Shown: one piece after another, positions 4,117-60,928 of the stretch
Layout of the letters: each line of letters begins with the position of its first letter
Position numbering within the stretch: position 1 is the first letter of the stretch
NCBI RefSeq assembly: GCF_024713945.1
Contig: NC_134678.1
Location: 6,634,001-6,698,000, forward strand
Source: Dermatophagoides farinae
Taxonomy: Eukaryota > Arthropoda > Arachnida > Sarcoptiformes > Pyroglyphidae
Length of the DNA stretch: 64,000 nucleotides
Direction of reading: 5' to 3'
Made by a program: the position numbers and the translations under genes
The notes under the pieces: generated by a model
Databases searched by the model: none
Told to the model about the DNA's origin: nothing
The model's input: the letters and a program-made list of their open reading frames with translations, nothing else

Positions 4117-4863
4117 ATAAATTTTCATTTTCCTAAACTAAACAAAAAAACAAAACATAAAATAATTCATGTTTAACATCACAAAGAAAGACGGCAACAA
4201 AATACCATTGTTTGCCTCAGTGTCTCCTCCTCTACACATAAATGTTGTATACATACCTACCTACCTTAATTATAATTAATTAATTGCCAAACATTACATT
4301 TTTACCATCATACACACACACGTATAGGAAACAATTATAAATTAAAAAATAATTGAATTGAAATACTAACATTACATTAACCATCATCATAAACAGAGCA
4401 TACACCCGCCACCATCTACCATCCAAAAAAAAAGCCAAAATGATGATGATAATGCCTTTCCATTATAGATCATATGTCAACGACAACCAACAACACATTG
4501 GCATGCATCAAATAAGAATTGTTGATGAAAAAATTTCCTGATTATCATCATTCATTGATAATAATAATAATAATTTGTAATTTGTTTTTTTTTACAAAGA
4601 ATAATTTGGCTTTTGTTTTTTTTTCATGCATACACACACCCACACACAACACACATATGGCTATAAAAATATCGATATTGAATAAAATCAAATTTAATGC
4701 CAATTTTCAAAAAAAAAAAAAAAAATTTTTCTTTCTGTGTTTGTCAATTTTAACAATAACAAGTTGAATTTTTTTTTCTTAGTGCAATTAGTTAAATTAA
4801 TTAATTAATTAATAATTGATTGATTGATGATGATATTATTAGAGAGGATGGATGAATCTAAAT
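4117..4863. other. Spacer between converging eIF1 and LRRC57
   Basis: AT-rich with CA-rich patches near 4310-4320 and 4630-4650, a run of ATA/ATT triplets near 4560, and a TTAA tandem tract near 4795-4815. This is the shared 3' side of two converging genes, so it should contain both 3' ends. No coding exon is seen. Confidence 0.45.
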
Positions 4864-6247
<1,384 letters not shown>

Positions 6248-7380
6248 ATGGCCGAATTATTCAAGTTTGTTATGATGTTATAAATTATGAATTTATAAAT
6301 TAATCACATCATTTCTTTTTTCTTTAGAGTTTTACAACCATTACAGTTTATGCAAACAATTCTTGTAAGTTATTTTCTGATTCATTTTCTTTATTTTTCT
6401 TTTACATTCTTTTTTGAATTTTGATGATATAGAATTCTGGTACAAGACATGATGGTAGAAAATTTGATGAATCTCGTCATGTATTGGTCAGTTGTGATTG
6501 TGTTACCAGTGCCAATGGTTCAGCATTGATAAAATTCGGTACATCTTCAGTGATGTGTGGCATTTCAACGGTTCGTTTTTTTTGTCCCAGTTAATTTATT
6601 TTTGCTATTCATTCATTGATTATTCAAACAATAGTCTTTGGTGAAACCAAATACCGATAAACCTGATGAAGGCATCATTGAAATAGACGTTCGATTCTCT
6701 AACACCTGTACGAATGAATTGGATAATCCTGATCGTACAACAATTAGTGGTTATGTTCGTGAATGTGTTAAAAAGATTTTATCACATGCAAAATGTATTA
6801 ATCTTGCACAATTATGTCTTATTCCTCGTAAATATTGTTGGAAGATAATGTTGGAGATTATCTGCTTAAATATGGATGGATCGATTGTTGATCTATCATT
6901 ATTGGCTACATTAGTTGCTTTGAAGAAATGTAAACTACGTAAATATGAAATCGAAACTGAATTCGGCCTGATAACACCAACAAATGAATATGAAAAGATT
7001 GAAATTCGAACATGTCCAATGCTTTGTACATTCGTCATAATTGACAAGTAATATAATTCAATTCTAATCATTATAAATCAAACTCATTTTTTTAATTCTT
7101 TTCAATTCACCACAGACATTTACTAATTGATCCAACAATGAATGAAGAAGAATTATCCGATTCTACAATACGAATGGCTATCGATCCGGATTCATCTATC
7201 GATAGTGATTGTCTTTATTTGCTTGAAGCCACTGGATCTTGTACAATGGATCAAAATCTACTTAAAAATATCCACAACAAAGCAATGAAAAGAGCTAAAT
7301 TTTTACGTTCAATCATGACAAAATATACAGAACAACCAGATGATGAAGAATCCTGTCAATTTGAACCAATGCTGTCATGA
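6248..7380 (+). CDS. EXOSC8: RNA exosome core subunit EXOSC8 / Rrp43 (RNase PH fold)
   Basis: Five exons (6248-6264, 6328-6364, 6433-6570, 6635-7047, 7116-7380) give 289 residues. The 17-nt first exon was recovered because MAELFK then joins in phase to VLQPLQFMQTIL, matching the EXOSC8 N-terminus. EXOSC8 is one of the six RNase PH-like proteins forming the catalytically inert ring of the exosome, which threads RNA to Rrp44 and Rrp6 in nucleus and cytoplasm. RNase PH motifs are RHDGRKFDESR, SANGSALIKFG, the helix with LCLIPRKYCWKIMLEIICLN, MDGSIVDLSLLATLVALK, and in the second half IRTCPMLCTFVIIDKHLLIDPT. The last two fit EXOSC8 better than EXOSC7 or EXOSC9. Phosphorolytic residues are not expected in this subunit. 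The protein is slightly longer than the human one owing to an acidic tail. Confidence 0.92.
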
Positions 7381-33500: not shown

Positions 33501-36500
33501 TATCATCATAAATGATGATGATGATGAAGCAAAAGAAAATCTTTGTTTGTATATGTGTTTGTGTTTGTGAATAATTATCCTATATTTTGCATATTTGCGT
33601 GTAAGATATTTTTTTCCCTTTTGATTTGTTGTTTTTTTTAAAGATTTTGATCTTAATCTGAAAAATATTTAGATTAAGAAAAAAAAATTACCGCCCACCT
33701 TATTATATAGCCACCCATGCATTAGGTATAAGCTGAGGACACACATTATTATATGATGAAAGTGGGTGTTGGTGGTGGTGATTGCTGTTGCGTAACCGGT
33801 ATACCGGTTCTTTTTTTGTCACACTGTTAGCCGACAAAAAACGTTCATCTCCAATTTGTTTTTTGTTGTTTTACCTTTTTTTTTATTTTGTAAATTTTCC
33901 ATGATTAAATAATTTTACCTTCATTTTTTTTTCTTTCTTTTTTTTTCACCCGTGAAAATATGTGTTTGTCTATGTATGTTTTTGTGTCGCTTACCAACCA
34001 ACTAGGATTACCATCATCATCATCAAATAGGAGTAATAATCATCATCATAATGATGACATTATTCAAGCTAATCAACAGCAGCAGCAGCAACAACAACAA
34101 CTTCAAAATTTAACAAAGACCATCAATAATAATGTGAAAAGGTCAAATGTTAATAATGATAATAATGGCCATTTAAAATTATTGATTAATACAAAAAAAT
34201 CTTTGTTATCTTCATCATCATCATCATCATCATCATCATTTGAAGAAGAAGAAGAAGAAGAAACAGAAGAATCTAATAACCTTGATAATAATAATAATGA
34301 AAATGATTCTAATGGTTACAATAATCGATGTATACCATTGTTAATTCTGTCCACACCTTCATCACCATCAAGTTCATCGTCAACATCTAATCATATTATC
34401 GATAGTGGTGGATGTATTAATAAAAAAATTCCAAAGAAAAAATTCCTTTCATTAAATACAAAATTATCCAAAACGAATGAAAATAAAATCATTATTGTGG
34501 ACAATAACAACATCATTTCTAGTACAAAAGAAAAAGTCACTGAAACGATCGATAATAATATCAGTAGCCATACAGCAACGAATAAGATATTGATCGATAA
34601 AACCCATCGTCAACAACAACAACAACAACAGCAGAAGGAAAAAATCAAAAAACAACAACAAGAAATAGAAAACTTTGCCGACAAAAGCCAACAACAAGAA
34701 AAAATAGTAGTCAACAATAATAAATACATCGTTACGACGGCTGTTGAAAATAGTGGCAATAAAACTATATCTTCTGTAGCTAAGAAACGAAAAAAAGAAA
34801 TTTCAACATCGACATCTTGTTTATCGGCGGCCAGTGTTGCTGCTGGTCAGCAATCAGACAACGGTAATAACAACAACAACAACAACATTATCGAATCGAA
34901 TTTCAACAACGGTGTTTGTGTAAAGATAGTGTCTGACACAAATAGTTTGAAAAGTGATTTGAAAAAAATTGAACGAAACGATAATAATAATAATAAAATG
35001 GACAATATGGATAATGTTGATTTGATCGCTACATATGATGGCCAAACACATGATGATGATTCAGTTACCAGTTTCAATATGACAAATAGTATGGATGAGT
35101 CAATGGATACATTGACTAAAAATATGGCCAATATAGGTAATGAACAAATCTCATCGAATGGTAAGTTTATTTAGCATTTTCCTATATATAAGTATAAGTA
35201 ATGATGTTTATTCACGGATTTAAAATTGATTTCTTTTCTAGATGGTGATAATGAACGTCCAGTCACTCCAAGCCCAGCAAATGTACAAGGCCTTCCATAT
35301 AAAGAACTCTGTGAACAAATACGTCATCAATTGGAATATTATTTTTCTTATAAAAATCTATCAAAAGATCAATATCTAGTATCACAAATGGATGATGAAC
35401 AATATGTTGCCATTTCGATTGTAGCCAATTTTGATAAAATACGTCGTCTAACAAATGATTTGGACTTGGTTGTTCAAGTGTTACGATCCAGCACAGAAGT
35501 TACTGTCGATGAGACCGGTACAAAAGTGAAACCGAATTCAAAACGACGTGTGGTCATATTACGTGATGTACCAGATGAAGTTACACGAGATATGATATTG
35601 AAGATTTTTGATGAATCTAAATGTCCAGTCAAATTGGAAAAATGTGAATCAACACATAATCAATCCTATTATCTTTACTTCCATGGTGATGAAGATGCTC
35701 AAAAAGCAATGACTTACCTACGTGATGAATTGGTATACTATCCATCAACACAGATACCGATTTTAGCCCGTATCAAAGCCAAGCCAACTGTTCGTCATAC
35801 GAATCCAACTAATCCAGTATTGGGACCTAATAATAAGCCCAATTCTGTAGTCCTTGGTGCTCCTATGTCAGTACCGCCACATAATGTGATAAGTCCGATA
35901 GGAATTGTGACTGCTCCTAGTCCCGTTGGTTCTACCATATCCAGTCATTCGGCTGCCGTTTCACCCGTATCTAGTATGTCTGGATCGATTATTAATCCAA
36001 GTAACCAGCAACCCAATCATTCGACACCAACTGTTTTATTGCCAACAAGTGCTACTATTCCTGGTGGACCATCAGGAACCGCCGAATCGACAATAAATGC
36101 AATACCTTATCCAAATACCGCCAGTGTTTATCCTTACAATGTGCCTCCTTTGACAAGAGTAAGTAATCAGTTTTATATTTGAAACTGTATTATTTACTGA
36201 TCTATTTGATTTCAGGTTTACCCACCATCACCATTCTATGCGACGCCAATAATGACATCTATTTCGAATGCATATGATCTGAGTACAGTGTTTGTTGCAA
36301 ATGGCTTGGCACCACATTATACACCAAATAGTAATGTAGCCACAACAGGACATTCAGGTGGTCCAACACCACCACCCGGTAGTGTTTGCATTCCTCAGGC
36401 AATTTTTATTCCGACGACAACAAATTGTCAAATAGTAAATGGAAATCATGTTATTGGTGCTGCTAATAATGGTCCTGGTTCCGCTACTGGCCCACCTGGT

Positions 36501-39045
36501 GTTGTTTCAGCCAACGCCAACCCTGAATTTAATACTGTACAAATGGTAGCGCCTATTTTGAATCCATCTGATGGCGGAAATCATCGATATAGTTTTGGCT
36601 ATACGCCACCATCTTCAAATGTTGGCCAACCATATGCCCACCATAATTCTTCGTATCAACCTTCTTACATGAAATCACATGGATCACAATCCCATCATCG
36701 TGGTGGGGGGTATGGTGGCAACAATGGAACAAACATGTCCGGAAGTGGTAAACCGTACCGTGGTGGTAATGGATATAATTCCAACAAATACAACAATTCG
36801 GGTGGTAGTGGCGGTGGTCCATCGTATGGCCAACATCATGCCAATTCAACTACTCATCATAATTCCGCCAGTTCTCATCATGGAGGCAACTATGGTGGCC
36901 ATCATGGATCAAATCATAGTCATTATCATCAACAACAACAACAGCAGCAGCAACAACCACCGCCGCCGCCATCATCATCAACAACAATGACGTCTTCTGT
37001 TGGACAAAGTTCATCTGGCAATAACAATAAAGGTAATAACGTTAATAATACGACAACTTCCACCCAATCATCATCAAGTCAATCACATCCGATAACTGGA
37101 AATACAATCGATACGACGATGGGCAACAAAATTTCATCATCTGCATCTTCATCATCAAACAAATCTTCAGCTGCCAATCATCATCAAACATCTAAGTCAA
37201 ATCCATCAATGTCTTCATCGTCGTCGTCGTCGTCGTCGTCAACTTATCCCAATAATAACAATAAGGTGGTGCAATCATCAAATAATCATAATCATTCGAA
37301 TGCTGCTAGTTCTGAAAATAACAACAACAATTTTACCTCGACTTCCGTGCCACATTCTTCATCATCATCCAACTGGAACAATAAATCAAATGTTGACAAA
37401 TCTTCAATGAAAGAAGAACAACAAACAACACGAAATACACAGACGACAATTCCAAATTCTTCAAACCGTTCGGTTAATCAACAAGCTGTGATCAATAATA
37501 ATTTGGGTCAAACCTCAACAAATACTTCGAATCGTAACATGTCGTCATCATCATCATCGTCGTCGTCAAATACGAAACAATTATACAATTCTGGAATGAC
37601 TCAACAAACATCAAATACAAGAGCTAATTCATCGAATCAGAATTCTCCGTATCGTTCAAATTCTAGTGCTTCAAAATCTAATGATCGTAATAGTGGTGGC
37701 CCAAATAATGATTCGTCCAACAATCGGCCTGAAAAATCATCGCGATATCCACGTAATAGCTCAGGTGCTGGAACTTCCGGAAAATCTTCCTATAATAATA
37801 ATCGAGGTGGTGGTGGTGGTGGTTCTGGAAGCTCAAATCGAAGTGGCTCTGGTCATGGCCAACATCAGCATAACCATCATCAACATCAATCAAATTCAAC
37901 GACAACCACCGAACAACCATTTGATCTGATGGCCAATGCATTTCCACCATTGCCTGGATCAGATGATCAGCAGCAAACAAATATGGCTACCACTGTTCAA
38001 ACATTAGAAGCGACGAACAAAGATTTGTCTGATATAAATAGAACAACACCGAATGTGCCTAATGTATCTGTTTCCTCTTCATCGGAACATCATTCAACAT
38101 CAACGAAAAATCAAGAAAGTATGGCTAATATAGTCAAAGGTGATAATGTATTAATAACTGGTGATCAATCTTGTCCTCCTCTTTCTTCATCATCATCTCC
38201 ATCTATTTTTCATGAACATAATGGTAACGTTGGAGCAGCAACATCATCATCATCGACGACGATTTTAGCCGCAACAACGATAAACAATAGATCCAACACA
38301 AATACTAATAATAATAATAATAATAATACTGCTACTAGTCACAATAATCGTAAACAGCAACAGACTTCATTTAGCAATATTACAAATGGTGAATCCAAAA
38401 CGATAAATGGCAATATCGTTACTACAATTAAAGGACCAGGCAAATCATCATTATCTACAACTATCAATAATGATAATGTCCTTAATAATATATTGGCCAA
38501 AGATTCTGATTCATGCCATGGATCTTCTGAACAATCTGTGTCCACAACAACAAATACTACAAAGCCATCATCATTAAATAATAATAAAAAAACAGCTATT
38601 CAACTACAGAATAGTACCGAATCGATAAATAATAATAACAATAATTCTATTGATAATGGAACAAATGGATATATCGATATTGAACATTCCCAATCAGCAA
38701 TGAGTAAATTAACTTATTCACAAATAGCTAAACGTGGTAAATTGGATACTACCAATACGGCCATAATGGGCAATTCCAATGTTTTTGTTGATACAATGAA
38801 TGATTCAAATAGTAATAATAATAATAATAATTCTCCATTGTGTAACGTTAGTGGTGGTAATATGCAATCATCGTCAGCATCATTGATTGCCACCAATAAT
38901 AATATTCATCATTCGGCTACTAATTTGTCAGCTTCCACAAACGCTTTGTCTACTCCCCATGCATTGGTGGTAAGTTTCAATCATATTTGTGAATTACAAT
39001 GTGTGTGAATAAAAAAAAAATATTTTTTCTTCCGCTTAGAAATGA
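21232..39045 (+). CDS. larp4: Giant La-related protein 4 (LARP4/LARP4B type)
   Basis: Six coding exons join with consistent phases: 21232-22038, 26936-28088, 34006-35160, 35242-36158, 36216-38969 and 39040-39045 (AAA TGA). The product would be 2263 residues against about 720-740 for vertebrate LARP4/4B. LARP4 proteins bind poly(A) RNA and poly(A)-binding protein, stabilise mRNA and promote translation in the cytoplasm. The diagnostic core is in exon 4. The La motif (residues about 1055-1140) has LCEQIRHQLEYYFSYKNLSK, DQYLVSQMD and YVAISIVANF. The RRM (about 1148-1225) has RRVVILRDVPDEV and LARIKAKP. C-terminal LARP4-like elements are FDLMANAFPPLPG (about 1912) and LTYSQIAKRGK (about 2176). 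Everything else is Ser, Asn, Gln, Thr and His runs. Exon 1 starts at an ATG with an in-frame stop just upstream. The acceptor at 26935 is weak but keeps the frame. A shorter form starting at 33960 is possible. Confidence 0.8.
23857..23887. repeat. Poly(A) tract
   Basis: Thirty-one consecutive A residues within LARP4 intron 1. No retroposed coding sequence or target-site duplication was recognised beside it. Confidence 0.95.
24748..24771. repeat. Poly(T) tract
   Basis: Twenty-four consecutive T residues in LARP4 intron 1. Confidence 0.95.
28089..34005. other. LARP4 intron 2 (5.9 kb), simple-sequence rich
   Basis: Begins with a strong GTAAGT donor in phase 1 and ends CCAACTAG. It is filled with (GTT)n, (CAT)n, (CA)n, poly-T and poly-A, and shows no coding exon. 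A stretch of less repetitive sequence at about 30330-30430 and a 16-nt perfect palindrome at 33794-33809 stand out. Confidence 0.6.
33794..33809. promoter_or_regulatory. Perfect 16-nt palindrome AACCGGTATACCGGTT
   Basis: The sequence equals its own reverse complement and contains two CCGGT half-motifs resembling the Grainyhead/CP2 consensus (AACCGGTT). It lies 166 nt upstream of an in-frame ATG that reads into LARP4 exon 3. Regulatory function is inferred only from the motif. Confidence 0.35.
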
Positions 39046-42000: not shown

Positions 42001-42658
42001 TTTTTGATTCTAACAATTTGTAAATGTTTATTATTATATACAATGAGAAAATACAAACAAACAAAAAAAAAATTTTCCAAGTCATGTGAACCACACACAG
42101 AATTCGAATCTATTGTTTTTCTTCTTCTTCTTCAACAACAACGATAATTATTACAAGAATTAATGAAATTATATAAAAAAAAACAAAAACAAAAAAAAAA
42201 TTAAATCTGTTTTTCCATTCATATATGTGTCATCATTGTTGACATATTTTTTTCTGTCAATTTTTTTTTAAATTATTTTTATTTTTAACCATTTGTATAA
42301 TTCATTTTTTTCTCTTCTCTTCATTCATTCATTCGAACGTCAATTGTCATGTGTGTTTTTCTTTCGATTATTGAACTTGTTTCGTTTTTTTTCTCTCTCT
42401 CATACACTCACATTCATTGTCATCATCACCATCGTCATCGTCATCATTTTCTTCGATAAAACTTTTGATTCACTTATTTTCTGAATGAATGAATGAATGA
42501 ATTGAAAAAAAAATTGTGAAAAAAAATTGATTAATAAATAAATTCCATTAAATTATAACCAAAAAAAAAGAATGAATTTCGAATTTTTTTTTTTCGTTGA
42601 TTTTTGAACGTTTTCCAGTGTGGCAATCAGATCTGTCGATTGGATATGAGAATCATTC
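39046..42658. other. 3' region of LARP4 and upstream region of the protease
   Basis: Non-coding and simple-sequence rich: (CA)n near 39875-39900, (CAT)n near 39800, GA/CT tracts near 41660 and poly-T at 41967-41992. It must contain the LARP4 3' UTR, whose end I cannot fix because AATAAA-like strings are frequent. No gene is seen. Confidence 0.5.
41967..41992. repeat. Poly(T) tract
   Basis: Twenty-six consecutive T residues between LARP4 and the protease gene. Confidence 0.95.
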
Positions 42659-43568
42659 ATGAATTTCCACCACCACACATTGCTGCTGTTGTTGTTGTTG
42701 TTGATGATTGCAACGTTGGCTGTACATTGTAATGAATTTCCATTCATAGTATCATTACAATATAGACATAATGATGGATGGCAACATTTTTGTGCTGGAT
42801 CTGTAATCCATAAACAATGGATTCTAACCGCTGCTCATTGTATAATGGATAAATTATTATTTCTTAATCAAACAATTGCTTTAGTGAATCCCAATCGTAT
42901 TGATCGTATTCAAGAACGACAATCGTATCGATTACATTCTGTTTTCATTCATCAACAATTCGATTTGAATACATTGGATAATGATATCGGTTTATTACAA
43001 ACGATTAAATCAATAAGGTTGAAAAAAGATTACATAGTACATTTGCCACGATCATTATTACCATCGATACGAATCAATGATATAGCTATTGTTGCTGGTT
43101 GGGGATCGACTATTTCAAATCATCTTACACAAAATCATCATCAACAACAACAACAACAACAACAATCTAATCATTTATTAAAAGCAACATTACGATTATG
43201 GCCACACGATAATTGTAGTGAATTATATCGTACTCAATTATCATTCATTGTTCCAAATGGAACATTATGCTATTTTTCATCATCGTATCAAGATTCTTGC
43301 CAGATAATTATATCTAATTTATTTTTATTTTTTTCATAATATAAACTGCTTATATACTGTCAATTTTGCTAATCTTTTTTCTTTTCTATTATTACAAGGT
43401 GATTCTGGTGGACCATTATTTCGTCGATTAAATAATCATTATTATGAAATCATTGGAATTGTTTCGTTTGGCGCATTATCATGCGATGGTTCATTGCCCG
43501 GTGTTTATACTAATGTTTTTCAATTTCGTCATTGGATTATTTCGAATATTGAGAAAAATAAATTATGA
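42659..43568 (+). CDS. Trypsin-like serine protease (S1), with a defective or unusual splice junction
   Basis: Two coding parts (42659 to about 43303, and about 43399-43568) make a roughly 270-residue S1A protease. A Leu-rich signal peptide (residues 1-22) is followed directly by EFPFIVSLQ, so the usual activation site and IVGG N-terminus are missing; an in-frame stop lies just before this ATG. The catalytic His is in LTAAHC (His60), the Asp in LDNDIGLL (Asp109) and the Ser in GDSGGP in part 2. Asp in QDSC marks trypsin specificity. Part 2 ends SCDGSLPGVYT and a helix with HWIISNIE. A polyglutamine insert lies near residue 165. The break is odd: CAG is followed by ATAATT, not GT, and an ordinary ACAAG acceptor would shift the frame by one. 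It is either a recent pseudogene, a sequence error or a rare intron. It converges on the TNF-receptor-like gene. Confidence 0.8.
43304..43398 (+). other. Non-canonical intron-like interruption in the protease
   Basis: Ninety-five AT-rich bases, with stops, separate QDSCQ from GDSGGP. The left edge reads TGCCAG/ATAATTATATC and the right edge TTACAAG/GTGATTC. No GT-AG, GC-AG or standard AT-AC placement restores CQGDSGGP in frame. Confidence 0.7.
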
Positions 43569-46800: not shown

Positions 46801-49521
46801 TCAGATCATTATATCATATATTCATAGAAAAGGTAATTAAGGTAAACCGAATGATGATAATGATGGACAACAGCAACAGGTTGTACGAATAAATTTCAAA
46901 TTCAATTCATTTTTTTTCTGATATAATGAATAAGGTTCTGTGATAAATAAATCTAGATGATATGTTCAAAAGAACTTGGTCAACAGCAATAATAACAAAA
47001 GATGAAAATTCGTGACTGAAAAAATTAATCATCAATTTTGGACTGAATATAAGAGTCGAAACAAAAAAAAAAGAAAAGAAAACGATGACTTAGATGAAGG
47101 TAAGGTAGATGCTATAATAATGATAATAATGAGGATGTGAATGAATGGTTTTTCTGAGTCTGATAAAATGAACAACAACAATGAGAGAATAATAATGAAA
47201 AAAAATTCAAATCGAATATTAGCATGGTGTTGTTGTTGTTGTCCAAAGAGGACAATCAATATGATCGAGAAAAAAATATGATGGATCAAAATCAAATCAA
47301 AAATGAATGATAATTACTTACCAATACAGATTGTGTCACGGTTACCATCACATCCGGAAATCATTTCTATTTTTAAAAAATCAAAAAAAGAAAAAGGAAA
47401 AATGAGTTTTCTCTTTCCCACTGTCACTATCTTGTACTACATTAAAGTTAATTATTTTTAAGTGAATTTTTTTCTTTCTAAAAAAAATTCAATTATAGAT
47501 CTTCTTCGTCGTAGTCGTCATTTGATCGACAAATATCAATTAAATTGAATTCAGGTCGATAGTCGATGATTTGATTTGATTGGCATGACGAAACAACGAC
47601 AACAAAATAGATGATTGAACTGGTTTGGTATTGAACAAAACTACTAACCTTGATTAGGACCACACTTTGAGCATTTTATGCAACCAAGCGTGCCAACTGA
47701 AGCACCGGAAAAAGTTCCCGGTTGACATTGTCGACAAACAGTGTTACGAGACCACCTGCATGTACGCCACACACCTAAAATATAAATCAAAAAAAGCAGA
47801 AAGAATGGAAAAAAATATAGTGTGTGTTATTATGGTTGATCATTATGATTGTATACGAAAAAAAACTGTTCCAATTGAATTGGGTACAAAACATTTGTTT
47901 TGAAGTCAATTCAACATTTTTATGGTCAAAAACGAATGAATGAATTTATGAATGAGAAATCGGAATCATTTGAACATATCGCAAATCTTTATTTTTTTCA
48001 GTTGGTGGTGGTGGTGACAATCCTCAATGTAATAAATATCACCCTTGTATCATATCATATATCTATTATATGTTAGCAATACAATTTATCGGATATATAC
48101 AAAAAAAAAGATACCGGCATACAATCATAATCATCATCATCATGATTATGATTACATGCATGAATCGAATCAAATTTTTTTGATCTTTTTTTTTCCTACA
48201 CACATTTGTTATTTATTATAATTTTTTTCCAATCCTCAATGGTCAAATCAAAGAGAAGGGTGTTGATGGCAATAATATCAAAATAGATCGAATCGTCAAT
48301 AAAATCAAAAAAAAGACAGAAATAAATGCTAATAAAATTTGCCGTATGTTTACAATCGTAAAAATCAAATATTTATGACAGTGTTGTTTGTGTGTGTGTG
48401 TGTGTGACTTAGTTATTCAAATACGGTTATGGCAATTTTAGAATATCAAAAATTATATGACCAGAGAATAAAGAGAGAGAGAGAGAGAGAGGGAAAGAAT
48501 CATAAAAATTTCAATTCCGATGTTTGATGAACATTCTAAATAACAGACAATTGAAATGGACAAAATTTTTAATGTGAAAAAAAGTGAAAGCAAAAAAAAA
48601 ATTTCACACAATAATGATTCATTGTTTATGATTCGAAATGAATTTCTGGTTCTAGCATAATAATTCTTTCTATCATTTGAATTATCATCCATCCATAGAA
48701 TGGACTGTATGTAAAGATGGAACAAAAGATTGTCATTGTCTGTGGGATTCTATTTTTGGTCATACCACACACACACATATGGTTTTGTGTTTATAGATAA
48801 AAAACCAAAAAAAAAAAAAAATTTTCTTACCATAACCAGATGGACATTCTGAACATGGTTTACATGTTCCATCCAATATTGACATATACCATCCTTGTGT
48901 ACAAACACATTCCATATTATTTGTACGATTACATTGTCGTAATATGATTGCACCTGATGGACATTTAGATAAACATTCATGACAATGACCGGTACGTTGA
49001 TTCCAATATGTTTTTCCATCAATACAATCATTTACAGTAATATTATTAGATGATTGATTTTGATTAATTATTGTTGATAATGATAAATTTTTTAGAATCA
49101 CATGACTAATAAAAATTTTGGAACGATTAGAATTCGAATGTTGTTGCTGTTGCTGTTGTTGTTGTTGATGATGATGATGTTGATGTTGGCCATTGATTTT
49201 GGCTATAATATTCAGATCACTAATATTCAATGATTGATTTTGTTGAAGATGATTATTACTATTATTATTATTAACCAAATGAATTAGCCATTTTGGTAGA
49301 ATCCTTTGTGGATTATCTTTTGTTGTCTTTGTCGTTGTTGTTGTTGTTGTTGTTGAATATATTATTAACGGATTTATCGTTGTAATCACTTCATTATTAT
49401 CACCGAAAACATTTTGTTGTTGTTGTTGTTGTTGAGAATCAGCTGATATAAATGTTCGATATGAATCGAAAAATGTTAAAAATATTAGAAAAATATTCGA
49501 AATACAATGTTTATGATGCAT
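43853..49521 (-). CDS. TNF receptor superfamily member with death domain (p75NTR/NGFR-like)
   Basis: Five exons, all joined in phase 1 (49521-48831, 47774-47649, 47366-47322, 45085-44252, 44190-43853), give 677 residues. The start at 49521 gives a signal peptide (HCISNIFLIFLTFF); an upstream in-frame Met at 49572 would add 17 basic residues. A long Gln/His/Asn/Thr-rich stretch (30-160) comes before the cysteine-rich repeats (166-287: CIDGKTYWNQRTGHC, CHECLSKCPSG, CVCTQGW, CKPCSECPSG, NTVCRQCQPGTFS, CIKCSKCGP). One membrane span (about 349-372) follows, then a Pro-rich and Asn-rich linker, and a death domain split by the last intron (about 540-640; EIWRLLARELGYDEKHIVQF). IWRLLARELGY closely resembles the p75NTR death domain. 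It probably binds a neurotrophin/Spatzle- or TNF-like ligand and signals through death-domain adaptors; the ligand is unknown. Confidence 0.88.
45086..47321. other. Third intron of the TNF-receptor-like gene (2.2 kb)
   Basis: AT-rich, with (CAT)n, GT runs near 46320 and poly-A near 46170. No nested gene is recognised. Smaller introns of the same gene are at 47367-47648 and 47775-48830; the latter contains a GA tract near 48473-48491. Confidence 0.5.
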
Positions 49522-51788
49522 TTTTTTTCTTTTCTTTTTTTTTGTTTCTGGTTTTTTACATGAATGAAACATGAAAATTCACATAAAAATTTGATAATAA
49601 TGATGACAACAAATTAAATTTTTTTTTTATTTTTTAAGAACAAGAAAAAAAATTTTGACAAATTGTCAATTATCAAGATGAACAAGAGATCACATGTTTT
49701 TTTTTTACTGCCAAAGTTTAACGAAATGACTAACGAACAAGAACATGGGTGAAGTGAATAGTTTGAACATTCGAATGAGAATGATCTAAGATCATTCAAA
49801 AACAACATGCATGCAACAGTCAACAAGATGGTCAATCAGATCGGTGTGTGTGTTGAACGATATGTGAAGAACCTCGAATCTCGTGTGATGATGATAATGA
49901 TGATAATATTCACTTTTTTTCCACTAACAAAACAACATGTTATTTCATTGTATGGTGAGGTGTTTTTTTTTGTCTGTTTTCAACTTGTTGAATGTTGGCA
50001 AACCACCTTTTTTAATACCATCTTTAGTTTATAATACACATATACAACAATGGCAAAAGGATCGTTGTTTTTTTTTCATTTTTAGTAGATCTTTTTTTTT
50101 TTGTATGAAGAATTTTACCACCACACCGAGAACTTTGGTTTATTTTTCTGCATTTTACGCGGCATGGTGTGTGTGTGTGTGTTTGTATTGATCGATAATA
50201 CCTCCAAGTACACCACACTCTTTCGTCTGATGATGACCAGTTCTTCTTCTTTTTTGTTGTTGTTGTTGGAAAAGAGAAAAAAAAGCTTTGGTGGTGGTGA
50301 TTTGGTTGTAAAATGTTGTTTGTTGATTGGTTGGTTGGCTCGGTGTATATACCCGAATATAAAGAGAGAAAGAGAGAGTTTGATTTTTTAGTGAAGAAGA
50401 AATTTGCCGACACACACAAATACATTTACAGACAAACACGATCAATGAACAACAACAACAACAAAAGTTGTATACAATTCGCCGACGAAATATCCCGAGA
50501 AATAATAATAATAATAAATGCCGACACAAGAAGAAGAAAAATTTGGAAAGAGAAAAAAAAACCTAGCTACGATTTTTGCATACATACACACACACACACA
50601 CCAATCGAAATGACGACAACCAGAAAAAAATGCTATCTATCTATCTATCGTTGTACGAATATATTCTTTTCCTCCCCACCCCCCACAAACACACAAAAAA
50701 ATAATACTTTATGGTACCACATTTACAAACACGAATATTATTATAAACGAATTATGTAGCCAAAGAAGAAGAAGACGAAGAAGAAGATAAAAACAACGAA
50801 TGAATTTATACGGTCGATCCTTGTTTGTATTTATGTAAAATGTACATTTGATAATCGTCGGCATCGTTCAGAGGTCATTAAGAATGTAATACATACATAC
50901 ACACATGCATACAAACAAACAAACAAACAAACAACCGATAGGACAATAGCCTATAGAATCAAAATCAAAGTTCGAGCTTGGTATAATCAGAACAACCGAC
51001 GACAAGACACACGAATAAATAACAACGAAAATTTGATGATGATGATGATGACCATGAAATATGTTTGTTGGACAAACATAAATATTTTTTTATTTTTACC
51101 CGAATCATATTGATGAAACGAAAAAAAAACAAAGACGACGACGACGACAAAAAAAAATTTTTTTTTTATTTCATTTCCAAATTCTTATGAAAATATACGA
51201 TAATGGAAAATTAAAAGACAAAAAATAGAAATCTATCACAAATGAAAAAAAAATGGTTCGATGATCATCATCATAATAATGATGATGATGATAAAAGCAA
51301 ACAAAACAAAAAAAAAACCAAACCGTCATGTCATCATATACACTTGAAATTTTTTTTTTATTTTTTATTTTATGAGACTGGATATATCCAACGAAAGTGA
51401 AACGAAAAATGTATAGTGATCAAAGTTTGCCGCAAACCAAAAAAAAAAAAAAAAAACAGAAAACAGAAACAGAAAACAAAACAAACCAAATCATAGAATA
51501 AACAGGAAAAAATATTGAATAAATGATGATAATCATTATTGTGATAGATTTGATAAAAGAATATGCCGATGAAATCATCATCATTTCATTTTAACCAGTC
51601 AAGTTTTTTTTTACTTTTCTTTTTTTTTGGTGATGATTGGTTGTCTATTTTTCGTTAAACCACATCATCATCATCATCACACATAGATCAAAAGAACCGC
51701 TAGAATTTACATATGGATACACAGGTCTTTTTTTTATTTTTATCATTTTTCAATACAAAAAAAAATCTAGTTTTACTTTTAAATTATT
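49522..51788. other. Spacer between the TNF-receptor-like gene and MRPS23
   Basis: Contains the presumed promoter of the receptor gene and the 3' end of MRPS23. Repeats include (CA)n near 50585-50600, CTAT tetranucleotides near 50633-50650, GAA triplets near 50764-50790, CAAA repeats near 50910-50935 and (GAT)n near 51035. No exon is recognised. Confidence 0.5.
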
Positions 51789-52414
51789 CTATGATGATGA
51801 TGATGACGACGATTTGGATGTGGATATGAATGTACGTTTCATATCGGAATCTTTACGACGTCTCAATTGTACACCACAATCATCAATAAGAGCTTTTTCC
51901 GTTTCATCAAACAATTTCGGGCTATTTAGATCAATTTCATCCAAACCTTTGGATTGTGCCAATTGTAAATATTTAGCGATAAACATTTCACAAACACCCA
52001 TTTTTGATGCTTTCAAATCGGATGGTTTATCGGATATAAAATCATGGATCATTACTGAATCACCGTATGTTCGAAAGAATCGACTAAAATAGTCATTAAA
52101 CAAAGAAATTCAGTTTATTTTATTTTTTTTTAATTTCAAAAAGATTATAAAAACTTACGATCGTAGAATATCTTCAGGATAGAAAATCGGCTTAATTTCG
52201 ATTTCGGGTTCTGGTCGAATGGCTAGCGGTTCAACAGTTGGAGGAAAATGTTGATAAACATCATACCAGATTGGACGATTTTCTTTTAAAACAGCACCGG
52301 ATTTAATCAAACCTGTATATCTATCAAAATCAATTGATTGAGCATTTGAATTGAAATAATTTTTGCATACCTTTTGAATATTGTGGAAAGTTTTTCAACT
52401 CTACTTCCAGCCAT
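51789..52414 (-). CDS. MRPS23: Mitochondrial small ribosomal subunit protein mS23
   Basis: Three exons (52414-52371, 52320-52159, 52083-51789) with GT-AG introns of 50 and 75 nt give 166 residues. It begins MAGSRVEKLSTIFKRYTGLI, nearly the same as vertebrate MRPS23 (MAGSRLE...IFSR). The middle has SGAVLKENRPIWYDVYQHFP, which matches the family's GVLKEKPLWFDVYDAFPP, followed by EDILRSRFFRTYG and an alpha-helical end with TEKALIDDCGVQLRRRK. mS23 is a metazoan-specific component of the 28S mitoribosomal subunit. The tail is a Ser run encoded by (TCA)n-type repeats with no counterpart in other animals, so its length may vary. The gene is head to head with NDUFB3, with 180 bp between start codons. 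Confidence 0.92.
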
Positions 52415-52594
52415 TTTTAAAAATCAAATAAACGATTTTCTAAGAATTTTTTAAAATTTTTTCGTCGTTTGAATCACATGTGTTTTATTTTTATATCGTC
52501 GTCTATGAACAGAGCTGAAAATCGAAACAAAAACAGAGGACAAGCAGGTTGATTTTTTTTTCTGACCATTTTGTGATTTTTTTTCTATCAGATT
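52415..52594. promoter_or_regulatory. Bidirectional promoter between MRPS23 and NDUFB3
   Basis: Only 180 bp separate the start codons of two nuclear genes for mitochondrial proteins that point away from each other. The short gap must carry both promoters and 5' UTRs. No TATA box or other named site is evident. Confidence 0.6.
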
Positions 52595-53074
52595 ATGGGA
52601 CGTGATCTAATTAGTCGAATTTTCGGTGGTCCCGTTAGTGATACTGGTCCATCGGCTGCACGAAAACCAACACCTGGATTCAATCTACCGCCTGGTGCTT
52701 ACATACCTGATTATAAAATCTACAAGGTTGAAGATGCACCCGAATTACATACGATTCAACGTCGTTTAGCTGCTCGTGGATTGAAATCCAATTGGTTAAG
52801 GTAAATTAAATATTATTCGATGATAAGTTATCGATTTGCTAATCCTTTTATTTGATAAAATTCTTAAAGAAACGAAGTATGGCGTTATAGCCGCAAAGAA
52901 TGGGGTACGGAAGCCTGGCGTTTGGCAAGTTTGTTTACCTATGGTTGGAAATATGCCATACCATTATTGATTGTTACAGCAATCTATGAAAATTTTTATA
53001 ATAAAGATAGCCATCATGGTGGTGGTGGACATCACGATGATCATCATGGCCATTCAAGTAGTAGTCATCATTAG
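52595..53074 (+). CDS. NDUFB3: NADH:ubiquinone oxidoreductase subunit B3 (complex I B12)
   Basis: Two exons (52595-52800 and 52870-53074; 69-nt intron, GTAAAT...AAAG) give 136 residues. NDUFB3 is a single-span accessory subunit of the distal membrane arm of complex I. The conserved core is IPDYKIYKVEDAPELHTIQ, RRLAARGLKSNWLRNEVWRY and a hydrophobic helix AIPLLIVTAIY, matching [30 protein letters not shown] and RNEAWRY of vertebrates. The N-terminus has an extra Gly/Pro-containing leader, whereas the C-terminus is a Gly/His/Ser-rich tail. In mammals the His-rich segment is at the N-terminus instead. The poly(A) signal is probably AATAAA at 53136. Confidence 0.93.
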
Positions 53075-53135
53075 TCGATATTTAAAAAAAAATTGTATTT
53101 GAAATTCTTTGCTAATTAACAATTCATAAAAATTT

Positions 53136-53141
53136 AATAAA
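53136..53141 (+). promoter_or_regulatory. Poly(A) signal of NDUFB3
   Basis: AATAAA 62 nt after the NDUFB3 stop codon, on the sense strand. Confidence 0.5.
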
Positions 53142-53615
53142 ATTGATGATTGATCAGTCGATTGTACAAATTTTTTTTTCATCTATGCAATGAACATGGA
53201 AAAATGATATTTTGGTCCTAGAATATTTAACGATTCGATGATACATATTTGCAAGTTGGACAAACGATCCTCAATCCCACCTTTGTGTAGTGACCATTCA
53301 AATTTTGATTTAAATTTTACATAATAATTTTCATTTTTCTTAATAAATAAATTTTGTCATTATTTATTTTTGATATTCTAAATTTTTGTTGTGTGTGAAT
53401 TTTAAATTAGCAATTTTATTGATAAAATCAGCTGACTGATGATTATAATAAATGGAAAAGTTTCTCTGGGAAAAAAAATTGAACAAAAAATTTAAAATAT
53501 TTCCAGAAATTCATGATTAGTAACGGGCATTTAGAATTTTATAAAAAACAGCACTAATCGAATTTCCGAGCAACTAATTGCATAGGTTTTTGGTGTTGTA
53601 ATTTTTTCCACAAAA
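53142..53615. other. Spacer before the RCC1-BTB gene
   Basis: AT-rich and less repetitive than other spacers. It holds the promoter of the RCC1-BTB gene. A sequence near 53425-53445 (TCAGCTGACTGATGA) includes an E-box-like CAGCTG; its use is unknown. Confidence 0.35.
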
Positions 53616-56600
53616 ATGTGTTCAAATGTAGGTTATTTTTTTCCATTTTTCTTTAATTTTTTACTAATTATATTTTGTTTTACAGAAAAATCCTTTAATC
53701 AAAATTGATGATGAAATGTGTAATAATAGCAATGATGATATTGATGATCCAGTTTTTCGTACAACAAATCTAGTTTTTTGGCCTTTATTACGAAGAATAT
53801 CCAAAGAATTTCTACAAAATGTTAAACAATTTCAGATATTTCATAATGGCCAATCGGCTATTTTTCTTCATCAAGATGGTATTTTTGTTTACGGTGATAA
53901 TTTTAACGGTTGGTTTGGCTTATCCAATCATGTTGATCGTGTCATTGAACATCCATTGCCAATCGATCAAATTTTTAAGAATGAAATCAAAACAATACAG
54001 ATTGGTAGCAATTTTATCATATTGTTAACAAATTCTGGTTATATTTATGGCTGTGGAAGTAATTCACATGGACAGATTGGATTGAAAAACGTTGATATGA
54101 TGAAACAATTTACATTGATACGTGAACGTATTAAATTCGTCAAAATTGCTTGTGGTTCTCTTCATGTGCTAGCATTAGACATCTTTGGAAACGTCTGGTC
54201 CTGGGGTGATAATGAATTCAATCAATGTTCAAGTATGCGATTCAAGTTTCTCATACCTACAAAATTACTATGGCCAAAATTTCAAAATATTCAAACAATT
54301 GATATTGCTTGTGGTTACACAAGTTCAATAATATTGAATAGTGATGGAAATGTCTATGTATTGGGTCGAATGGCATCGATTTATTTTATGCGACCAACTC
54401 GAATGGAAATCAAATTAAAACCAAATAATTTCATTAAAAAAATTTATGGATGTCGTGATATTTGTGCTCTACAAACAAATCATGGTGAAATTCTTCATTG
54501 TTTTAAACGAAATGAATATCTTGAATTTCAAAAAATCGATACAAATATTCAAGCTATTAGCACACATTGGAACAACAATCAAATCATTCTTTATTCAAAA
54601 TCTGAAAAGAGATGCTATGTTTGGAATTATGATAATCCTGAATCATTTGCAACGAATTCTGATTCAATACCAGATATCACTAATCTCTATGTTCATCCAA
54701 ACACACCTGGATTAATTAAATTACCATTGGATCTTTCACCTAATACCGATTTCAATGATCCAACCTGTTCAGATCTTGAATTATTAATCACTGACTTTGA
54801 ATATGGAGAATTACCAAGAACATTATATGTTCAACGAGCTATTATCATGAAACATTGGGAAAATCTGCTGAATTATTCTGTTCAATCACCAACAAACACT
54901 GATAGAATAATGATTGACTCTTTTCCTTATTCGTTTCTGTTTCAATATATTTATTTCATTTATAATGGTAATTATCAAACACTTTGGCGAAGCAATCTGG
55001 ATGATAAAGAATATTTTGAGCAAAAAATGTTATTACAAGATTTACTTGCTCATTACAGTTTAAATGATTCTTTACATGAAACATTGCAAAATATTATACT
55101 TGAACGTTTGAATGAGGAAAACTATATTCAAGTAGTATCCCTACAAGCTAAATATCAATCTACTCTATTGTGTCGGCAAAGTGTTTTTCTTTTTCATTAT
55201 TATGTTTACATGAATATTCAAAATTGTGGAAAATTTTTCGAAGATTCATTACGATATAATCAACCACAATTTATAGAACGAATTTTTCGTCTTTTATATA
55301 ATTTTATAAATATCAACTATCGTTATTTGGAAGAAAAATTGAATCCCTATTTGTGTAAATATTACAAGCAAGAATTATTCGATGGTAATGATGAACTTTA
55401 TTATTTGGCCATACGATATGATCCAGAAAAACGTGATTGTATACGTTTTATGAATGACAATGTGGTTACGATATCATTGTTACAGATTTATAAATCTTGT
55501 TTCATGTATCGAAGATATGATTTAATACCAGAAGTCTTGAAACGTATAAAATTCTGTATGCGTAAACATTTGGCCAATGTTTTCTATTTCTATCTATTTT
55601 CACTTGATTATAAATCATATGGTGGTTTATTCGATGATCATAACCATCGTTATCTTCATCAGCTTGTTGTAGCATTTATTAAAAATCCAGAAAATTTCGA
55701 AATAACTCGTAAAGATATTCTTGAACATGTTTTGGCCGAATCGAATTCGAATGCAAACTTGACATATTTTATCAAGGCTAAATTGTTTCAATTAAATGAT
55801 GATTTTCGTTGGCTAGAATCTGTCACCAATTTTTCCGGACAAGAAACATTAATGATACCGGCCATTTATTGTCAATTTTATTCACTTGCCAAAAATAAAC
55901 GAGATGAAAAAATATTGAAAACAATCAAACAACATTTATCCAGTGATCTTTTCGTTAATTTCAACACTTTACCATTAATATTTTTATTGGCATTATTCTA
56001 TGAAGATGAACAACTTAAATTGGTTATAAATGAACGATTGTCAACTGATCTTGATTCTGAAAACATTTTAATCGTTTATAAAATTGTTCATACATACATC
56101 GATGATGATGAATTTTCCAAATATCTTTATTCATTATTTATCAAACATATCAATATGTTCAATTGCATACAATTATATGAACTTATTCAACAATACAAAG
56201 ATTCATTGGCCTTAACGATATTACGTCCGAATTTAATCAAAAATTTTGATTCAATCAATTTGAGTAAATTTGCAAAACTTGCTATGAATTTTCATGATCA
56301 AATTCTATTGTCTCATATACAGAAATTTATTCTTACTAATTGTAATAAGAAAAATGGAACTGATTTCTATAAATTGATAATGCGAAATTCAACATCATTT
56401 TCAAATGATTTTATTCAATCATTTCGAAATGTTATCAGCAAGAATTTATCATCAGAGAACATTATTGATTTCATTATAGCAGCATCGAATCATTTAGATA
56501 CAGAAATGGTTGAAAAATTATGGAAATTAGCTCATGATTATATATCGGCAACGAATTGTTTACGATTCTATGAAATGATGATTCAAAAAGATTTTTTTGA

Positions 56601-57018
56601 TCAATGTCTTCAATTGAAAATAAGTATGATGCTAGCCAAAACTGTTAATGTTGAAAATTTCGAACGAATCTATGTTCTTGCCATCAAAGCAAATGATGAA
56701 TCATTGATCAATCAACTCAATTCTTCTATAGTGAAAAAAATAATGAACAAAGAAAATTGTATTCAATTGTATCGATTTGCAATGAAAAATTCTGATCATA
56801 AATTGGCAAAAAATATTGGCATGCAATTAAAAAGTTATCTAACGGTGAAAAATTGTCTTCGAATCTATATAATTTCATATGAAAATGATGATTCATTTGT
56901 TCGTAAACTATGTGCTCGATTTTTGGCTTCGAATCCAAATGGACGAACATCATTATCGATAATGGATAAACAAGTCAGCTTTCAATTAAAAATGGATTTG
57001 GAAAACTTTAATTTCTAG
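53616..57018 (+). CDS. RCC1-BTB protein with a long BACK-like helical repeat tail
   Basis: Exon 1 (53616-53627, MCSN) joins through a GTAGGT...TTTACAG intron of 58 nt to 53686-57018, giving 1114 residues; an internal Met at 53716 is an alternative start. The first 330 residues form RCC1-type propeller repeats, seen in IGSNFIILLTNSGYIYGCGS, HGQIGL, CGSLHVLALDIFGNVWSWGD and CGYTSSIILNSDGNVYVLG. A divergent BTB/POZ fold follows at about 365-470 (DLELLITDFEYGELPRTLYV, then FPYSFLFQYIYFIYNG). The remaining 600 residues are alpha-helical with regularly spaced units of the form NCxxxYxxA. RCC1-BTB proteins such as RCBTB1/2 are putative CUL3 substrate adaptors but are only about 530 residues long. 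The extra length here is unusual, and I know of no close relative. AATAAA at 57116 probably ends the transcript. Confidence 0.8.
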
Positions 57019-57172
57019 TCTACAATTGTTATTCAATAGATGTCAGTACTATCTCATTGTTTATTTTTTTAATGTTATAACACGTGAAAACAGAATCGAA
57101 TGTTTTTTTTGTTGAAATAAAAAAAAAATTTATAAAATTAATTTTGATTGTGATTTTATTTATTCGAAGAAA
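57019..57172. promoter_or_regulatory. Very short gap between RCC1-BTB gene and TTI1
   Basis: The 154 bp must include the 3' UTR and AATAAA (57116-57121) of the upstream gene and the promoter and 5' UTR of TTI1, both on the plus strand. Read-through or a shared transcript is conceivable but not shown. Confidence 0.45.
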
Positions 57173-60100
57173 ATGGCAGAATTTCCAGATCATGTGCAAA
57201 CAAAATTATTGGCCATCAAATGTGAATCTTGTTTATTTGCACCGGATCCGAATAAACTTGATGATATCAATAGATTCCTTCAGAATCCTAATCTTACCAT
57301 AAATTTTTTCCAATCAAATTGTGATCGTTTAATATTTATAATTCAAACGATTATGGCTGATATGCCTAGATTGATTTCAAATCCAGAATCTAAATTTAGG
57401 TATATTTTTAATATTTTTTTTTTTGAATTTACATTTTGACATTAATACAAAGAAAATACATAAATTAATTTCAGTGCTGATCAACTATTCCGAAAATGTC
57501 TGGAAATTTATCGAATTTTATTCAAAAAAATCATCATTAATAATCCAAAAGTTTTTGATGCCACTTTCAAAATGTTTTCATTGTTAATCGATAAACAAGC
57601 TAATCAGAAAAATAACGATCTTGGCAATAATATAATCGTTCTAAGTGATAATTCCACTGAATTATTGATTGAATGTACAATCAATTTATTAGTGGCATGT
57701 GATCAATCAATGTTCATGGATTTTCTATTTGATCAAATTGAAACAAAAAAATTTGAAATGATATATGGAATGCTTTCAAATTGTCTATTGCAAATTATTG
57801 TCAAACATCATTATCAACCATTGAAAAAATTGTCATTAGAATTAATGTCAACAATGTATTTGAAAATTATTGGCCAGCGATTGTCTGAGTTCAATTATGA
57901 TCTGCCAAATTTTAACGTGGCCAATGACAGATTCTTAAGATTTTCGAAATTTCTTTCATCAATTTCACCCGGATTATTGTCTAGACTTTGGAAACTGTTG
58001 CAGCTTTGTTCAAATGGCGATTACCATAAGCTACATTCTGATGTTATTATCGTTTCGTTGAAATTATTGAATATTGTTCTTCTGATGGTTTTTGAAAATT
58101 CTGGAAAATGTTCTGAAGATTTATTTAATGATGAGAAATATTCCAGAAATTTATCAACAATGATTTCCGATATCATTGAAACACTAATCGAACATACGGA
58201 TTCAAACATACGATTTAATTTATTAAAATTCACCGAAAGTTTGATGTTTAACTGTAATGAAAAATTTATACTGAATCAAATTCTTACCTTATTCAAAGTT
58301 CCTTTAAATTATATTGGAGCAAATTCCATCAATGGATTTGAAAACGAACATGACGAGATGAATGAATTATGTAAACATTTTCAAGAAAATTTTCAAACAA
58401 AAATCTTGGAAAAATCAATTCGATTTGACGTGACCAACATTTTGCATAAAGAATTATTTGATCATCTCACCCGAATGCCATACTCATTTCGAAACATTGA
58501 TATTCATCATCATCATCCTAATAAAATTATAACGAAAACAAATTTAAAATCATCATTTCAAATTCTTGTTGGTTTTTTACATACATTGAATCAATATGGA
58601 ATCAATGATTTTTTGAAATTAGAACAACATAATCATCATTTATTTCGTACATTTATAAATCTGGGAGAATTTGATTTTAAACGTTCGAAATTTTTACCTC
58701 AAGAATTCGTTGATAATGATGCTGATTTCAGTAATAATGATATGAATCGTCATTATCTGATTGAAAAAGTATTCGCTGCATTTCATTTTGATAAATATCT
58801 GAAATATCTGAATGAAAAAGAATTATTTCAATGTTATAAACATTTCATAAGTTATTTATGTGAATTTTCAAATTTTCAAACATTTCAAATCATCACCGAT
58901 CATTTATCCTATCTTTTGGAATATTCTGATTTCGATCCAACTGTCATTATGATTACGAATATTTTTATGATAAATGTATCAAATTTAGACTATAAAGATC
59001 AGTTGGATTATTATCTTCAAGAATTTCTTAATAATTATTCAAAAAATCTACATGTGATTGATATTTACGTTGAAGATGATTTAATGATTCAATCAAAACA
59101 AATGGATAAATATCTTACAATCGATAGTATTGCACAAATTTGTTCATCAAAAACTAATGCATCGACGAAATCCGACGAATCAATCGATTTGATCAAATTA
59201 CATCAAAGAAAATTATTTCAACATTGTCTAATAATGCAAGGAACAACATTATTATATACTTTATTTAAACCGGAAAAAATTCGTTCAAAATTTTTCAAAT
59301 CATTTTTTCTTGATCTTTTACAATCAATTGGTTATCCACGAAGCGATCTTGTTTCTCGTGTAGCTAAATATTGTATGATTTTAATGGGTCATCATCTAAA
59401 TCCCGAACTAATGAACAATGTTAATGACTTAAAATTCTTATCAAATCAAATGATTATGAATAATTTGGACTATATTTTCAGTTCATTTAGTATCGGTCTG
59501 GATTATAGTGTTGTACAGCAAAGAAAATCTGAAATTTCACATGTTTATAAATATGATTCGTATTCAATCAAAACTATTCAAAATTCTTTACTTGCTGTCA
59601 TTGAATTGATCACTGAATATTATTATCAATCATCATCATCGATTTCATCATTACAAATAGAATATCTTCATCGATTGATTGATCAAATTTTGAATCTAAT
59701 AAAATATTATTCCATACGTTTAATTGATATTAATTCCGAAGAATTGAATAATTTGATTGAAATTCTATATGCATATGTGAAGCTCATAAAACTGTTATAT
59801 GATGATGATGGTGATGATGTTCAAGATGAATACACAATCGAGAATAATGCTGACTTTGAAACTGATAAAATGAATACTTTGATTAAAGATGTTGAAAATT
59901 TTGCACAGACATTTTCCATCATACAAAAAGATCTGAATTCAACTCCGAAAACACCGGTGGATTTAAATAGTTTTCAAAATTGTTCTACCATCAATGAAAA
60001 TGATGATAATGATGAAATGAATGATGATAATTTGAAAATTCTTCAATCTCCAATCATTAAATCTCGTGTGGCCAATATTTTTCATCTATGTCCAATGTTG

Positions 60101-60928
60101 CTTGGTGATCCAAACATTGCTATTCGTTTGAATGTATTAAAATTATCCTATATTTCAATGAAATTATTACGATCTTATGAAGGCAAGTATTAGGTTCATA
60201 AACCTTTGATCTTTGATTCTTATTTTTAAACATTTTTTTTCATTATTTTAGATATACTTCTTCCATATGTTCATCGATTTTGGGATTCATTGGTTCAACT
60301 TTTGTCATTGAAATTGGAACATCCTGTTGTGGTAAAAAATGCTTTCGATTGTTTAATGTTGGCCAATAAATTATGTGGTGATTTTTTACTTCGTCGTATG
60401 GGCAAAAAAATCATACCTTCATTGATAAATTTTCTACAAATTCGTTTCGATTCACGTATCAATTATTATCGTAAACATGGCCATAATGAAACATTGAAAA
60501 CAATGGATTATTATATTGAATTAGAATTACTTAGATCATTAGGACGATTAGCTGTAAATGTTAAACTACGATCACAAGATATTTGGAAAATGTTACCAAT
60601 TTTCATACTTTATACATGTTCCAACGGAATAATAATGGATTTACGACAAAATTCATTACAATCATTAATCATCATATCGGATCGTGCAGATTATTATTCA
60701 GTACGATATTTTGTACATATTTTTTTGGAAATATTTTATGAAAATCCTGGACTATCAATTCTACGTCCAAATCAATTGTCTAATCAATGTCTAATCAAAT
60801 TTCAATGTATTTGCCATAGAAATCGTGAACATTACAAAAATATTACAAGAAAATATTCAGATTTATTATTACCATTAGATCATAAATATAATCTATTAAA
60901 TCAATTGATAATACATTTGAATAATTAA
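57173..60928 (+). CDS. TTI1: TELO2-interacting protein 1, TTT complex subunit
   Basis: Three exons (57173-57399, 57475-60182, 60252-60928) give 1203 residues, near the vertebrate length of about 1090. TTI1 forms the TTT complex with TELO2 and TTI2, a cochaperone that delivers HSP90 to newly made PIKK kinases (mTOR, ATM, ATR, DNA-PKcs, SMG1). The whole chain looks like HEAT-type helical repeats. The most recognisable region is C-terminal: LGDPNIAIRLNVL, then ILLPYVHRFWDSLVQLLSLK, FDCLMLANKLCGDFLLRRM and KKIIPSLINFL, the block conserved in TTI1 proteins. A long Asp/Glu/Asn-rich insert lies at about residues 840-930. Intron 2 begins GAAG|GCAAGT, so it is a GC-AG intron. AATAAA starts 2 nt after the stop. 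Confidence 0.88.
60183..60251 (+). other. GC-AG intron of TTI1
   Basis: A 69-nt intron with donor AG|GCAAGT and acceptor TTATTTTAG. Splicing restores SYE-D-ILLPYVHRF in phase 1, while read-through meets a stop after GKY. AG|GCAAGT is the typical strong form of rare GC-AG introns. Confidence 0.8.

Follow-up and report, generated by a model that had tools for sequence, protein, structure and literature searches.

An RCC1-BTB protein of the mite Dermatophagoides farinae with a C-terminal array of predicted hairpins resembling the 3-box hairpin of BACK

Organisation of the locus

We analysed a window of 64,000 nucleotides of the mite Dermatophagoides farinae (NCBI RefSeq assembly GCF_024713945.1, contig NC_134678.1, positions 6,634,001 to 6,698,000 of the forward strand). 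A gene at window positions 53716-57018 encodes a protein with RCC1 repeats, a BTB-like domain and a long helical tail, the last part of which consists of repeats of 32-35 residues that are predicted to form helical hairpins. The repeat units resemble the hairpin that follows the BTB domain in BTB-BACK proteins, the 3-box. The forward frame is open from 53668 to 57018 (1116 codons, stop codon at 57016-57018), and the G+C content of the window is ~29%. Residues are numbered from the methionine at 53716, which gives a product (P0001) of 1100 amino acids. A putative tiny exon and intron further upstream would join in frame and fit a protein of 1114 amino acids, the length implied by an earlier note on this DNA, which spoke of 'residues 480-1114'. 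The features are as follows.

53616..53627, + strand: putative tiny first exon (ATG TGT TCA AAT), from sequence reading only
53628-53685, + strand: putative 58-nucleotide intron (donor gtaggt, acceptor ttttacag), on the same basis
53686..57018, + strand: main coding exon (open frame and translation; the P0001 frame is 53716-57018)
53833..54372, + strand: RCC1 repeats, residues 40-219 (Pfam and PDB matches)
54760..55107, + strand: diverged BTB domain, ~residues 349-464
55108..55590, + strand: BACK-like helical region, ~residues 465-625, opening with a 3-box-like hairpin
55591..55854, + strand: all-helical connector, residues 626-713 (modelled at low confidence; sequence not periodic)
55855..55956, + strand: degenerate hairpin unit, residues 714-747 (unit profile, 6.5 bits at 720-743)
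55957..56055, + strand: degenerate hairpin unit, residues 748-780 (register by eye)
56056..56154, + strand: hairpin unit 1, residues 781-813 (units 1 to 9 all by unit profile, alignment and model)
56155..56250, + strand: hairpin unit 2, residues 814-845
56251..56346, + strand: hairpin unit 3, residues 846-877
56347..56451, + strand: hairpin unit 4, residues 878-912
56452..56547, + strand: hairpin unit 5, residues 913-944
56548..56649, + strand: hairpin unit 6, residues 945-978
56650..56748, + strand: hairpin unit 7, residues 979-1011
56749..56844, + strand: hairpin unit 8, residues 1012-1043
56845..56943, + strand: hairpin unit 9, residues 1044-1076
56944..57015, + strand: short C-terminal tail, residues 1077-1100 (translation)

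The N-terminal part belongs to the RCC1 superfamily, with Pfam scores of 71.9 bits for RCC1_2 (cut-off 22) and 56.4 bits for RCC1 (cut-off 21.7). The whole-propeller model WD40_RLD reached 109.9, under its cut-off of 150, and the PDB sequence matches of the region are UVR8, HERC2 and RPGR. The RCC1-like region probably extends to ~residue 330. Pfam gave no BTB match (PF00651, E values up to 10) and no above-cut-off BACK match (PF07707), whether the whole protein or segments were searched. The BTB fold is indicated by profile comparison, by the paralogue L014 (see below) and by structure comparison of the model, where 49 of the 50 matches listed are chains of BTB proteins (6wcq being counted via its KEAP1 residue range). 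Matches of the model spanning BTB and the BACK-like region include the CUL3-bound chains of KBTBD2 and A55.

AlphaFold2 was run first on the single sequence and then with a seven-row alignment that spans only BTB and its tail and in which some paralogue tail ends lie in distant columns. Two earlier alignments had placed paralogue tails wrongly onto the repeat units and were excluded from folding. In the model from the single sequence, every one of the nine units forms two helices (block-mean predicted local distance difference test score 75-87 over residues 980-1085). The modelled layout, at moderate confidence, is BTB, then the BACK-like region, then helix pairs at all nine units.

A tandem array of predicted helical hairpins

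Unit boundaries were placed by hand on a conserved asparagine, which occurs at residues 783, 816, 848, 880, 915, 947, 981, 1014 and 1046 (spacings of 33, 32, 32, 35, 32, 34, 33 and 32 residues). In the autocorrelation of residues 781-1076 the strongest signal falls at a lag of 32 (z 5.8); none of 3000 shuffled sequences gave as high a value at any lag in the range 20-60. All nine copies have N at position 3 of the unit, seven have Y at position 8 and eight have D at position 16. When each unit was scored against a profile built from the eight others, five of the nine outscored every one of their 1000 shuffles; the scores of the remaining four were reached by 13, 18, 33 and 49 shuffles of 1000. 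Units 2-9 are only 16-29% identical to unit 1, so the array is either old or fast-diverged. The alignment of units shows M in place of V at the first residue of unit 9, where a GTG codon was read as a start.

Upstream of the nine units the signal fades. A further unit at residues 720-743 scores 6.5 bits, equalled by 2 of 300 shuffles of residues 431-780, and segment 690-800 matches the unit profile with a probability of 19. No periodicity is seen over residues 500-780, where 1531 of 3000 shuffles equal the observed value, and residues 480-1076 taken as one stretch are not significant (lag 32, z 2.6, 540 of 3000 shuffles). The repeat claim is therefore limited to the last 300 residues and does not extend to the whole tail.

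The earlier note had described an RCC1-BTB protein with at least nine tandem helical units, and Pfam, profile, structural model and periodicity all bear this out. All nine of its quoted core motifs are present, the fourth, NGTDFYKLIM, having been quoted from its G. The proposed unit length of 36-37 residues was wrong: over residues 781-1076 there is no signal at a lag of 36 or 37 (z 0.8 and -0.1). Periodicity, which the note would have tested by self-comparison from residue 480 onwards, holds for residues 781-1076 and is not significant when the stretch is taken whole. The suggestion that more degenerate units lead back to the BTB domain survives in part, for the unit at 720-743 (by profile) and that at 748-780 (by eye), and fails for the aperiodic stretch of residues 500-780 as such.

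The units resemble the 3-box hairpin of BACK

We compared a two-unit profile, built from the nine units with overlapping rows, with sets of sequences from the same genome (hhalign; assembly of 62,435,336 bases in 22 contigs). The BACK set holds nine rows, or seven once its RCC1-BTB rows are taken out, and comes from 15 BACK matches of which 11 were read; L036, L037, L039 and L040 were left out as incomplete or hard to align. The BTB comparison set contains one gene twice (L004, L038). The solenoid sets were built from the best matches among those listed (TPR 12 of 41, clathrin 12 of 16, ankyrin 10 of 144, HEAT 10 of 53).

When the target was the BTB tail together with BACK hairpin 1 from nine BTB proteins, the two-unit profile matched it with a probability of 92 (P 5.8e-7) over 60 columns in register. 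The score of 34.4 compares with a maximum of 18.2 among 200 column-permuted controls, none of which reached it. A target set stripped of its two RCC1-BTB rows still gives a probability of 63-65 (P 6-7e-5), and non-overlapping unit rows match the BACK hairpins with probabilities of 91 and 53. A single unit finds BACK hairpin 1, the 3-box region, as the best of ten sets (probability 40); against the BTB-tail hairpin alone it gives 0.8. Against the tails taken from 12 rows of mite RCC1-BTB proteins, two units reach a probability of at most 10. The units are thus like the classical 3-box and far less like the faster-changing tails of their own RCC1-BTB family. The resemblance to BACK opening hairpins that the earlier note had proposed is thus upheld.

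Against the TPR, clathrin, ankyrin and HEAT sets the two-unit profile gave probabilities of 0.3, 0.5, 0.1 and 0.2 (scores 7.5-11.9), and the reverse controls, in which these sets were compared with the BACK hairpins, gave 0.1-0.9. An origin of the units from these four families, none of which Pfam names in the protein, was rejected on these probabilities. The array is nevertheless not a four-hairpin BACK domain, as it comprises nine units and two weaker ones in addition to the BACK-like region. In KLHL3 the 3-box forms the opening hairpin of BACK, a domain expected to contain four hairpins in all (extracts of PMC3616122), and BACK spans ~130 residues in BTB-kelch proteins (extracts of PMC1257465).

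The detailed correspondence is with the BACK/3-box of KLHL3, KLHL11 and KEAP1 (PF07707), a hairpin of ~32 residues that opens with N and, in BACK proteins of this genome, an NCxxxxxxA-like helix, as the mite units do. In known BTB-BACK-Kelch proteins this hairpin directly follows BTB, and the two-unit profiles align in register. Unlike these proteins, the mite protein has nine near-equal units beyond its BACK-like region and no Pfam BACK match.

Searches of the tail against Pfam, NCBIfam and PDB sequences assigned it to no BTB, BACK or solenoid family. We dismissed as chance the names that scored below threshold (among them MscS C-terminal, APOBEC4-like, VPR, Leuk-A4-hydro_C, DUF4773 and IsdI). 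In the PDB the nine-unit profile matched exportin-1, one septin and designed helical repeats, the last with a best E of 6.6e-11 although no stretch was significant by itself. We judged the designed-repeat matches to reflect general helical-repeat likeness.

Paralogues and the CUL3-contact motif

The best match to the protein in its own genome is L010 (27% identity over residues 3-361) and the longest collinear match is L014 (27% identity over residues 8-433). The protein shares with the mite RCC1-BTB cluster, and with RCC1-BTB proteins of the RCBTB1/RCBTB2 type, N-terminal RCC1 repeats followed by BTB. Shortly past the BTB region the frames of L010 and L014 come to an end, and those of L014, L028 and L012 stop 17, 31 and 61 residues past the Pfam BTB stretch, whereas the window protein runs on for ~640 residues. 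The tail was thus probably gained and kept. Residues 430-1100 matched only themselves in the genome, and mite-free collections of viral and prokaryotic genomes held no tail relative (1 and 10 pattern matches, none confirmed).

The phi-x-E motif (alpha3 region, alpha3/beta4 loop) is a main CUL3 contact, and in KLHL3 the motif mutation E85A severely disrupted CUL3 binding, to which BTB and BACK both contribute (as given in extracts of PMC3616122). We scored the motif by eye on rows caught by a sequence pattern, a subset of the 97 BTB matches in the genome. It is kept in 11 of the 14 BTB copies of relatives that were read. Eight of the nine mite RCC1-BTB rows have it (W-x-E, or Y-x-E in L014; L020 reads WNG), as do three of the four modules of L086, a frame described below. 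The loop of L010 reads WAS and lacks the motif. The aligned loop of the window protein contains no glutamate in either of two alignments read by eye, and phi-x-E is absent. By sequence, the family looks to consist mainly of CUL3 adaptors, and the window protein, like L010, looks to be without the contact. In our view its missing motif makes a CUL3-independent or weakly CUL3-binding scaffold likelier than a standard CUL3 substrate adaptor.

Discussion

We favour, at a probability of roughly 55%, the view that the protein is a diverged member of the RCC1-BTB family that carries an enlarged BACK-type solenoid and acts as a BTB-anchored scaffold that is independent of CUL3 or binds it only weakly. 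The 3-box-type hairpin that opens BACK would have been multiplied into a solenoid of at least nine, and probably eleven, hairpins, the units thus descending from a BACK hairpin. BTB domains generally dimerise. If the one in this protein does so, the dimer would carry a pair of RCC1 propellers and a pair of long helical arms, one of each per chain, and propeller and arm may both serve as surfaces that bind the partners of the scaffold; the existence of such partners, and expression of the gene, are assumed in this model.

The main competitor is the idea, already raised in the earlier note, of a long-reach CUL3 adaptor in which BTB and the 3-box hold CUL3 while the BACK solenoid and the RCC1 propeller hold a distant substrate. 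It draws support from the match of the modelled BTB and BACK-like region to CUL3-bound chains, from the contribution of both domains to CUL3 binding in KLHL3 and from the motif retained by most relatives. The idea is weakened by the absence of phi-x-E from the loop, here and in the best-matching paralogue; in KLHL3 the E85A mutation of this motif severely disrupted the binding of CUL3. Moreover, the likely substrate propeller lies N-terminal to BTB here and C-terminal to it in kelch proteins. We regard such a long-reach adaptor as rather unlikely.

A generic alpha-solenoid of HAT, TPR or HEAT type joined to RCC1-BTB, its N-cap motif having arisen by convergence and not by descent from BACK, appears improbable. 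Such solenoids (TPR, HAT, HEAT, PUF, retromer VPS35) are likewise antiparallel helical hairpins in tandem, with a similar overall shape to our model: Foldseek and VIA-align place it closest to spliceosomal, PUF, retromer and designed helical repeats, the last being also the best PDB matches of the unit profile. In profile comparison, however, the BACK hairpin match scores 34.4 (null maximum 18.2) and the TPR, HEAT, ankyrin and clathrin sets, the four families covered, score 7.5-11.9; the array also sits in a protein with a BTB domain upstream. That the gene is a non-functional or decaying duplicate, and the repeat a drifting remnant, we find scarcely credible. The many RCC1-BTB copies in the genome, the failure of Pfam to recognise BTB and the missing CUL3 motif would suit decay, but 1100 codons stay open at this base composition, the asparagine is kept in every unit and the frames of L010 and L014 stop shortly past BTB, so that the tail was probably gained and kept.

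On the reading of an enlarged BACK-type solenoid, BTB-BACK proteins are a known kind and this one is a variant of them, not a new kind. BACK is normally a fixed-size piece between a CUL3-binding BTB and a substrate domain. An array of at least nine related hairpins, if true, would mean that a 3-box hairpin, like a TPR, is open to repeated copying, which bears on how BTB proteins change their reach. Since most RCC1-BTB copies read keep the CUL3 motif, a protein that lacks it and has acquired an arm suggests that function has changed. More tentatively, we speculate that the 3-box hairpin is itself solenoid-forming and was multiplied in this mite lineage while a BTB protein gave up CUL3 to become a dimeric two-armed scaffold, which would define a new class of BACK-descended alpha-solenoid. 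In the open-licence literature, which leaves most subscription papers outside its coverage, we found no BACK solenoid or comparable array; it also held no paper joining Dermatophagoides, BTB and RCC1, and none on a mite RCC1-BTB expansion.

The clustered RCC1-BTB expansion and other genes

Of the 97 BTB matches listed in the genome, 46 fall at 531-674 kb of contig C7, where many frames also have RCC1, forming a large clustered RCC1-BTB expansion. Further BTB matches lie at 1985-2003 kb and 2228-2234 kb of the same contig. Within the cluster, L086 (C7:646500-654500) has a frame at 1239-7232 on the minus strand with 1997 uninterrupted codons, in which four RCC1-BTB modules follow one another head to tail; Pfam marks four stretches each of BTB and WD40_RLD. 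The cluster also contains a 1489-codon frame with three BTB matches, and frames of 983, 1013 and 1068 codons with two. As BTB usually occurs in one copy per protein (extracts of PMC1257465), such frames may be natural tandem RCC1-BTB polyproteins or genes that have lost their intervening stops. On contig C16, the RCC1 matches at 51734-53320 (L013, L024) lie within an open frame of 1660 codons.

Five other genes were noted in the window:

4864-5610, - strand: leucine-rich repeat protein
35205-39008, + strand: La-domain protein, then a long low-complexity frame
42650-43339, + strand: trypsin-like protease
48760-49578, - strand: TNF-receptor-type cysteine-rich protein
57116-60928, + strand: TTI1, the downstream neighbour (Pfam TTI1 N- and C-terminal domains)

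The likely start codon of TTI1, at 57173, is ~155 bases past the stop of the RCC1-BTB gene.
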